From: Longimicrobiales bacterium
GTDB taxonomy: Bacteria; Gemmatimonadota; Gemmatimonadetes; Longimicrobiales; Gaopeijiaceae
Assembly (NCBI GenBank): GCA_951828585.1
Contig: OX639991.1
Coordinates: 124,001 to 188,000 of the forward strand
Direction: 5' to 3'
DNA: 64,000 nucleotides
Every line of letters starts with the position of its first letter. Position 1 is the stretch's first letter. A program made the translations under genes and the position numbers. Below the pieces are notes generated by a model. That model had not been told where the DNA came from. It saw nothing but the letters and a program-made list of their open reading frames with translations, and made no database searches. Positions 42,349 to 43,516 of this stretch are shown piece by piece.

Positions 42349-43029
42349 TCAACCCGGATCCCAGAATGGTCCCGTGAGCCCCGCCTCCCGCAACATGGCC
42401 CGCTTGACCGCGGCCGAGGCGGGTCGCCAATCGTCGCTGAAGCGGCCCCCGTACCAGCCGCGACTGAGCTTCCCCAGCACATCGACCGGCACCGTCGCGC
42501 CTGGCCGTCCCCCGCCCCGCCCCCGTTCCCAGGCTCGCGCATCCCCCTCCGACCGGAAGGCCACGATGTTGCGTCAGGTGTAGCCGATGTCGTCCCAGAA
42601 GGCGCGCGCGGGAACCGGGAAGCGAACGACGGCGCCAGCCGGCCCGACGCGGCCACCAGCCACGGTCAGTTCGAACGGCACTCCCGACCGGGGGCAGGCC
42701 GTGCGCGCAAGGCCACTTGTGCCCAGCAGCAACGGAATCGCGATTGCGTCCCACGCGCAGTTCGCCCGGTACGCCCCGGCCGGGGTCTCGACGCGGTACG
42801 GCGTGGGGACGGCCGAGAAGGGGTGGGCCATCCAAACCTCGCCGCGTTCATCCAGGGCGAGGACATGGGCTTCGGCGAGGAAGCGGAGTGCCCCGGCAAT
42901 CTGTGTCTGGGTCGCGTCAAGGTGGGCGCCAAGCTCGGTGCGCGCCGGTACCGCTCCCGTCTCCCGCGTCCGGCGATAGAGATGCCCGCGGAGGCGCCAG
43001 GCTAAGTCTCCCGAGGGTTCCGGCCTCAC
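42349..43029 (-). CDS. merB: MerB-like organomercurial lyase, candidate selenoprotein (in-frame TGA)
   Basis: Read through one TGA (42576-42574), this is a 226-residue alkylmercury-lyase family protein. An N-terminal winged helix (TELGAHLDATQTQIAGALRFLAEAHVL and HPFSAVPTPYRV) precedes a catalytic domain with Cys91-x2-Asp94 (ANCAWDAIA), Cys112 (ACPRSG) and position 152 encoded by TGA in DDIGYT-TGA-RNIVAFRSEGDARAW. Spacing 91/94/112/152 matches Cys96/Asp99/Cys117/Cys159 of the known MerB. The TGA thus replaces the second catalytic cysteine. A SECIS-like hairpin follows. GTG 43029 overlaps the doxX stop. MerB breaks C-Hg bonds; true substrate here is inferred. Confidence 0.8.
42545..42560 (-). 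promoter_or_regulatory. candidate bacterial SECIS hairpin after TGA 42576
   Basis: On the transcript, CCUUCC pairs with GGAGGG (one G-U) around the tetraloop GGUC. The loop begins 20 bases after the UGA, inside the range accepted for bacterial SECIS elements, and starts with GG. The GGUC loop is the same as the core of the E. coli fdhF SECIS loop. Confidence 0.6.
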
Positions 43030-43457
43030 CCGCGCCGCCGCGCCAGCCAGGCGTCGACACTCAGACCGTCATCCTCGAACATCGCCATCGCCAGTACCAG
43101 CAGTATGACGCGCGGGATGACGTGTGTATTGAAGGCGTAGAGCGGCTCGGCCACCAGGTGCCCGAAGGTAACGAGCACCAGAACCGCCCCCAGACCGATC
43201 GCGGCCGGAAAACGCTGCCAGCCGACAACCATGAGGGCGCCGCAAACGAGTTCCACGAAGGGGATGGTCGTGCCCGCGACCCACAGCGACCACTCGGGCA
43301 GAAAGCTCATCTCGTAGGGCGCGACGAACAGCTCCCGGGCATGCTCGACCGCACCGAGGGAAAACACCTTCCAGAACCCTGCGGCGAAGAAGATCAGGCC
43401 CAGAATGACCCGCGTCACGAACGCGGCCCAGCACTTTGGTGTGATCTTTGTGGTCAT
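43026..43457 (-). CDS. DoxX-family membrane protein
   Basis: The 143-residue product (MTTKITPKCWAAFVTRVILGLIFFAAGFWKVF) has four membrane helices and FVELVCGALMVVGWQRFPAAIGLGAV typical of DoxX/MauE-like proteins, some of which partner thiol or sulfur oxidoreductases. A TTG at 43469 is an alternative start. Its stop overlaps the GTG start of the MerB-like gene, so the two are co-translated. A role in electron or thiol supply to that enzyme is inference. Confidence 0.75.
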   Translation of the reverse strand: MTTKITPKCWAAFVTRVILGLIFFAAGFWKVFSLGAVEHARELFVAPYEMSFLPEWSLWVAGTTIPFVELVCGALMVVGWQRFPAAIGLGAVLVLVTFGHLVAEPLYAFNTHVIPRVILLVLAMAMFEDDGLSVDAWLARRRG

Positions 43458-43516
43458 CTCGCGGGACAACTTTGCTCACGGCGTGCCGCGACACAATGAC
43501 GGGAGGCGACAACGAC

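Follow-up and report, generated by a model that had tools for sequence, protein, structure and literature searches.

A gene of the organomercurial lyase (MerB) family, here called Sec-MerB, lies on the reverse strand of a 64,000-nucleotide stretch of DNA (the window), which covers positions 124001-188000 of a single-contig genome (4.47 Mb, 99.5% complete) from a bacterium of the Gemmatimonadota. The gene carries one in-frame UGA (Table 1) and is the only MerB gene in the source genome. On translation the UGA, at residue 152, proved to be the sole interruption of the 226-residue frame, which a second TGA ends. Read through the UGA, the product matches the Pfam MerB family (PF03243) over residues 71-194 with 77.5 bits (gathering cut-off 27 bits). 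The part before the UGA alone scores 49.4 bits, and the 71-residue open reading frame (ORF) downstream of it, taken alone, has no Pfam match. The original prediction, made from sequence alone, of a MerB-family protein broken only by one TGA was thus borne out by read-through translation; its claim of a strong family match on both sides held only in part, being true of the joined frame but not of the downstream ORF.

Table 1. Positions of the Sec-MerB gene and its features in the window, and of related loci with two in-frame UGAs.
Feature	Coordinates	Strand	Description
Sec-MerB gene	42349..43029	-	226 residues, GTG start, UGA as predicted Sec codon 152, UGA again as terminator
In-frame UGA (Sec152)	42574..42576	-	at the column of E. 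coli MerB Cys159 (catalytic) and of the second catalytic Cys in MerB2
Cys91 codon	42757..42759	-	aligned with catalytic Cys96 of MerB
Asp94 codon	42748..42750	-	aligned with catalytic Asp99 of MerB
Cys112 codon	42694..42696	-	corresponds to MerB Cys117; varies among Sec forms
SECIS hairpin	42545..42560	-	stem of 6 bp; apical GGUC loop (42551-42554) lying 19 nt downstream of UGA
MauE/DoxX-type membrane protein	43026..43469	-	directly upstream, 4-nt overlap with Sec-MerB start
Double-UGA locus	L139:9153-9896	-	UGA at both catalytic Cys positions
Double-UGA locus	L141:9005-9745	-	UGA at both catalytic Cys positions
Double-UGA locus	L142:8523-9287	+	UGA at both catalytic Cys positions
Double-UGA locus	L168:4155-4925	-	UGA at both catalytic Cys positions
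Double-UGA locus	L169:5070-5810	+	UGA at both catalytic Cys positions
Double-UGA locus	L170:8623-9375	-	UGA at both catalytic Cys positions
Double-UGA locus	L140:9167-9721	-	UGA at both catalytic Cys positions

Alignment places the UGA on the first Cys of the MerB segment SFCCHVHFF, which is Cys159 (the best sequence matches to solved structures were all MerB), and the spacing of Cys91, Asp94 and Cys112 (+3 and +21) is that of Cys96, Asp99 and Cys117 in MerB. Both points had been predicted and both held. The MerB triad Cys96-Asp99-Cys159 is kept in position, with the chemistry of its third residue changed by the substitution of selenocysteine (Sec) for Cys; the Cys112 column is occupied by C, S or D among the Sec forms. 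An AlphaFold (AF2) model of Sec-MerB, built on 45 relatives, had a mean pLDDT of 96.1. Its best matches in the PDB (Foldseek, VIA-align) were MerB2 (5c17; Z 17.9 over 189 residues) and MerB (3f2f; Z 14.8), with unrelated folds below Z 5 and the next fold after MerB/MerB2 at Z 4.5. MerB2 was also recovered by profile search (E 2.8e-21), its catalytic Cys falling in the Sec column. Model and alignment together predict that the product folds like MerB, with Cys91-Asp94-Sec152 replacing Cys96-Asp99-Cys159; the active-site geometry of the model was not measured. Sec-MerB therefore shares with MerB (PF03243; NF009710, NF033555; PDB 3f0o, 5c17 MerB2) the predicted fold (Z 14-18), a full-length alignment, the equivalents of Cys96 and Asp99 and the position of the second metal ligand. 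It differs, however, in that this putative ligand is Sec, in its low identity (only about 24% by structural alignment), in its score of 41.3 bits against the NF009710 equivalog cut-off of 193, and in having no mer operon and no merA over the cut-off.

The UGA recurs at the same place in other genomes. A first scan found ten relatives on other contigs, all with a UGA at the identical position and with identity down to about 41% in Acidobacteria. Of 395 Gemmatimonadota genomes searched for MerB, 81 had a match, and in the 81 aligned rows the Sec column held UGA in 52 and Cys in 24, the rest being gaps, with no other residue. Nine further single-UGA forms, again with the UGA at this site, were present among 297 Acidobacteriota genomes. 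All 61 UGA homologues examined from the two phyla carry the codon at one column, and nearly all other homologues have Cys there; identity of relatives to the window protein ranges from 28 to 71%. No relatives of Sec-MerB were found in the viral contigs searched. Three tryptophans downstream of the UGA (W167, W192 and W223) are invariant in 45 sequences, demonstrating that the frame after the UGA is under selection. The gene thus belongs to a family conserved in at least two phyla, Gemmatimonadota and Acidobacteriota.

A lone UGA in an otherwise intact frame looks, at first sight, like a nonsense mutation in a MerB pseudogene or a sequencing mistake in the assembly, and one relative with a second UGA at a non-Cys position (L104) may really be decaying. 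This explanation is however all but excluded, since 61 UGA homologues of two phyla, down to about 29-45% identity, carry the codon at one and the same column and the protein is conserved past the UGA. The original prediction had listed random nonsense codons in homologues and an assembly error as observations that would refute it. The homologues show UGA or Cys at one column instead, and an assembly error is excluded because the same UGA occurs in dozens of independent genomes.

Several loci met in these searches are of separate interest. In L104 (3992-4318(-), genome G074) the second in-frame TGA of the Sec-MerB gene is accompanied by a change of the phenylalanine of the conserved FRSE peptide, marking either a decaying gene or a sequencing error. 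The Acidobacteriota homologue L127 (1324-1962(+)) has Trp (TGG) where the Sec codon would stand, and its Cys91 region is shifted; the Sec codon was perhaps lost through a one-base change. L032 (G225:C167) is a Cys MerB carrying an in-frame TAG. The gene is also present in L023 (VXNP01000090.1), from a metagenome-assembled genome titled Gammaproteobacteria that is probably a mislabelled Gemmatimonadota bin.

Downstream of the UGA, positions +14 to +19 pair with +24 to +29 around a GGUC loop at +20 to +23. A 6-bp hairpin with this loop, starting 13 bases after the UGA, had been predicted and was confirmed in the same position; its stem, loop and 19-nt distance fit the bacterial SECIS (bSECIS) model as quoted in PMC13188914. 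A near-invariant CUUCC-GGUC-GGAAG hairpin stands at constant distance behind every UGA of the 61 homologues. Among the 58 distinct sequences of these regions, each of the five pairs from +15/+28 to +19/+24 formed in 57-58, the sixth (+14/+29) in 46 (U-A in 26, C-G in 18), and the loop was GGUC in 56; in L119 and L121, both from Acidobacteriota, the C-G at +15/+28 has turned to G-C. Across 46 aligned sequences 95.3% of cells were paired and 14 cells were changed on both sides, values of pairing and covariation score that none of 500 shuffles reached, and sliding the partner strand along reduced pairing to 45-69%. Because the hairpin overlaps the conserved FRSE peptide, we also examined synonymous codon choice. 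The codons for Arg159 (CGG, 49/49) and Ser160 (TCG, 47/47) have zero entropy, whereas 22 other conserved sites of fourfold or sixfold degeneracy have synonymous entropies of 1.2-2.1 bits. Part of the sequence conservation of the hairpin is coding (FRSE), and related sequences inflate the covariation counts.

A covariance model of the hairpin matched the region 42576-42532 with 54.1 bits (E 1.7e-13), and this was the only significant match genome-wide (E 1.2e-11; next best E 3.7). The window sequence was among the 46 from which the model was built, so its score is partly by construction. Independent support for the hairpin comes from its recovery behind the second UGA of a distant double-UGA family (described below), from the zero synonymous variation and from the compensatory changes. 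Cys homologues do not keep the hairpin sequence and score no more than 12.8 bits with the model.

The source genome encodes tRNA-Sec (79.7 bits; anticodon UCA, called as tRNA-SeC by ARAGORN), selB (318 bits, cut-off 242) and selA (497.5 bits, cut-off 268), each over its curated cut-off; selD was outside the scope of this search. Absence of selB or tRNA-Sec would have refuted the original prediction, and both are present, as is selA. Moreover, selA occurs in 50 of 52 UGA genomes, both exceptions being drafts that are 81-89% complete, as against 4 of 11 genomes of the Cys sister clade described below (Fisher p 2e-5) and 240 of the 343 remaining genomes (Fisher p 1e-5). These p values are indicative only, since the genomes are not independent.

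The same data bear on two other readings of the UGA. The codon might simply terminate translation, leaving a functional 151-residue N-terminal part and a remainder that is unused or separately translated. Consistent with this, the N-terminal part matches PF03243 by itself and a GTG codon after the UGA opens the 71-residue ORF. Such a product would however lack the second metal ligand as well as the three invariant tryptophans, and the hairpin and the co-occurrence with selA would be left unexplained; we regard this reading too as all but excluded. Alternatively, the UGA could be read as Trp or Cys, through a reassigned code or a Cys-charged tRNA-Sec. The Trp of L127 speaks for this, and mis-insertion of Cys at Sec codons is known under low selenium. 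It is nonetheless very unlikely, since UGA is an ordinary stop in the source genome, terminating both the Sec-MerB gene itself and the upstream ORF, and since a UGA-specific hairpin is found together with the selA/selB/tRNA-Sec set; partial Cys insertion is not excluded.

Sec-MerB is thus very likely a Sec-containing member of the MerB superfamily, as the original prediction of a selenoenzyme had inferred, in which SelB and tRNA-Sec(UCA) would decode the UGA at 42576-42574 as Sec under the direction of the downstream GGUC-loop hairpin. Its MerB-like function is assigned by analogy, and the case rests on comparative genomics, without protein-level or selenium-labelling evidence. That Sec is encoded, under selection, at a metal-ligand position of the MerB fold is shown comparatively and not by experiment.

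A Sec-containing MerB relative has a precedent, because SaoL (NF040728, motif CU), a MerB-like organometallic lyase selenoprotein of the SAO system, is already listed in PMC13188914 and attributed there to Haft & Gwadz (2023); PMC9312934 likewise lists an 'alkylmercury lyase MerB-like protein' among selenoproteins. The original prediction, which knew of no described Sec-containing MerB, needs changing to this extent. SaoL and Sec-MerB are both MerB-related bacterial selenoproteins. However, Sec-MerB aligns with the SaoL model only over residues 32-128, before the Sec, and its motif is TU rather than CU. Its score of 25 bits falls short of the 140-bit cut-off, and it was therefore rejected as a member of SaoL. 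ORF inspection of the neighbourhoods showed no shared selenoprotein transporter genes, the SAO families not being searched individually. Neither the single-Sec family nor the double-Sec form is described in the open-access literature searched, which leaves out most subscription papers, and a search of other selenoproteome papers in that literature for MerB gave nothing. By score the present family lies far from SaoL; within the literature searched, the double-UGA family is new beyond what the original prediction had found.

Cleavage of carbon-mercury bonds is the textbook role of MerB, and mercury is bound far more tightly by selenium than by sulfur. The source genome contains no merA over the cut-off (the best TIGR02053 match, E 1.4e-110, falls below the 454-bit cut-off), there are no mer genes around Sec-MerB, and no mer neighbours are shared across the relatives' neighbourhoods inspected. 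The MauE/DoxX neighbour is conserved in close relatives only, other clades having different neighbours; because a simple heuristic (ORFs and GC position) was used to define the neighbourhoods, individual neighbour ORFs are uncertain. Genomes with the UGA form are not enriched in merA (over cut-off in 6/52, vs 31/395 overall). Canonical Cys MerB adjoins merA on the same contig in three Gemmatimonadota genomes (G090, G270 and G137). Assignment of Sec-MerB as a mercury-operon gene was rejected, as merA and shared mer neighbours were looked for and not found. Unlike a standard mer operon gene, the Sec form usually stands alone without merA. As a separate observation, three genes for MerA-like flavoproteins carry one in-frame TGA each and possibly encode Sec flavoproteins (G115:C26:57853-59205(+), G303:C11:3286-4638(-) and G147:C101:248-1600(-)).

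These data raise the possibility that Sec-MerB is a Sec protein of MerB fold that acts without MerA on a substrate other than organomercury, either another organometal or an organometalloid. The merA and neighbourhood results for the source genome and its relatives, and the pairing of canonical Cys MerB with merA in the same phylum, favour this view, as does the description of SaoL in the literature as a MerB-like organometallic lyase. Against it, the MerB catalytic triad is kept in position, and MerB without MerA is a known puzzle that has been reported for Cys MerB too (PMC8261052). On balance we lean slightly away from a non-mercury substrate. Organomercury remains the first guess, but the carbon-mercury lyase activity of the original prediction is an inference only for a gene that usually stands alone, and the natural substrate is not shown.

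If Sec-MerB is indeed a MerB-like lyase, then by analogy with MerB the Cys91 thiolate and the Sec152 selenolate would bind the metal of the organometal, Asp94 would relay a proton to break the carbon-metal bond, after which cellular thiols would take over the metal. Compared with a thiolate, a selenolate is softer and more acidic; it would already be deprotonated and may bind Hg(II) or a similar metal faster. Computations on MerB indicate that Cys159 and Asp99 act in proton transfer and mercury release (PMC4525700), and the lower pKa of a selenol would alter a step of this type. Such an enzyme would be a non-redox use of selenocysteine, which is rare, and a natural Sec enzyme at a metal-binding position raises the question of how the product is released and what is gained. 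Routine annotation truncates these proteins at the UGA, and they may therefore be overlooked in surveys of demethylation genes: only one MerB from Gemmatimonadetes is listed in one survey (PMC8261052), as against at least 50 Sec forms in 395 Gemmatimonadota genomes.

A second family, from Acidobacteriota, carries two UGAs. Four such matches appeared in a first search of 297 genomes, and in a profile search of 396 genomes, six contained loci with exactly two UGAs, seven in all (Table 1); two fragments covering only the second UGA were also recovered. UGA1 replaces Cys96 (GAUAEDA, with Asp99 kept) and UGA2 replaces Cys159 (DYU...FFWSEEHA). Profile alignment with the single-Sec family pairs both positions (E 5e-16), both UGAs align with Cys of MerB2, and members score 41-51 bits with PF03243. 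The two families thus share membership of the MerB family, the UGA at the Cys159 column and the GGUC hairpin; they differ in that the double-UGA form has an N-terminal extension and, at the Cys96 column, an additional UGA followed by a separate hairpin. UGA2 is followed by UUCUUCU-GGUC-AGAAGAA in all members, and the hairpin model trained on the single-Sec family finds it with E 1.9e-10 to 2.8e-3, to which shared coding ancestry contributes. UGA1 is followed by (C)GCCCUU-CGUGC-AAGGGC(G), with C-G changed to U-A in one member. The 7 sequences offer a single compensatory pair in this hairpin and 67/500 shuffles scored as high, so that covariation alone is not significant. An AlphaFold model of the family, from the same number of sequences, was not usable (pLDDT 54). 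In genome G599 the double-UGA merB heads an apparent operon (L141:3243-9745(-)) that continues on the same strand with a small ribbon-helix-helix ORF, selA, selD and selB, the selD having a C-terminal CMD/AhpD-like domain. Of the four double-UGA genomes tested three contain selA, the exception being G500. A bolder reading, which we can neither favour nor discount, is that these genes form a widespread, MerA-independent lineage of organometal lyases in Gemmatimonadota and Acidobacteriota, and that one branch of it has Sec for both metal-binding Cys residues (U-x-x-D...U), so that two selenolates would grip a metal ion; the substrate of the lineage may not be mercury.

A maximum-likelihood tree nests the Trp form among the Sec forms, together with ten Cys rows that have the motif NCAWC...YTC and carry Cys in place of Asp99. 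The U label needs to change only three times on this tree, which fits one gain and two losses, although the root is not fixed. The direction Sec to Cys in this sister clade is therefore an inference; if it is correct, the striking point is that loss of Sec was accompanied by replacement of Asp99 by Cys. The clade (L030, L036, L040, L048, L056 and L074, and also L173 on a Paraburkholderia plasmid) comprises the closest Cys relatives of the Sec forms by tree, from which it differs in having Cys for Sec, Cys at the Asp99 equivalent and no hairpin. The plasmid match (28.6% identity) was considered as a possible Sec form and rejected, being a Cys form with CxWC. A natural series within one fold (Cys+Asp+Cys, Cys+Asp+Sec, Cys+Cys+Cys and Sec+Asp+Sec) is thus available for testing. 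The CxxC found in place of CxxD in L030, L036, L037, L039, L040, L048, L056, L074 and L173 (3001-3636) constitutes a three-cysteine variant of the MerB active site.
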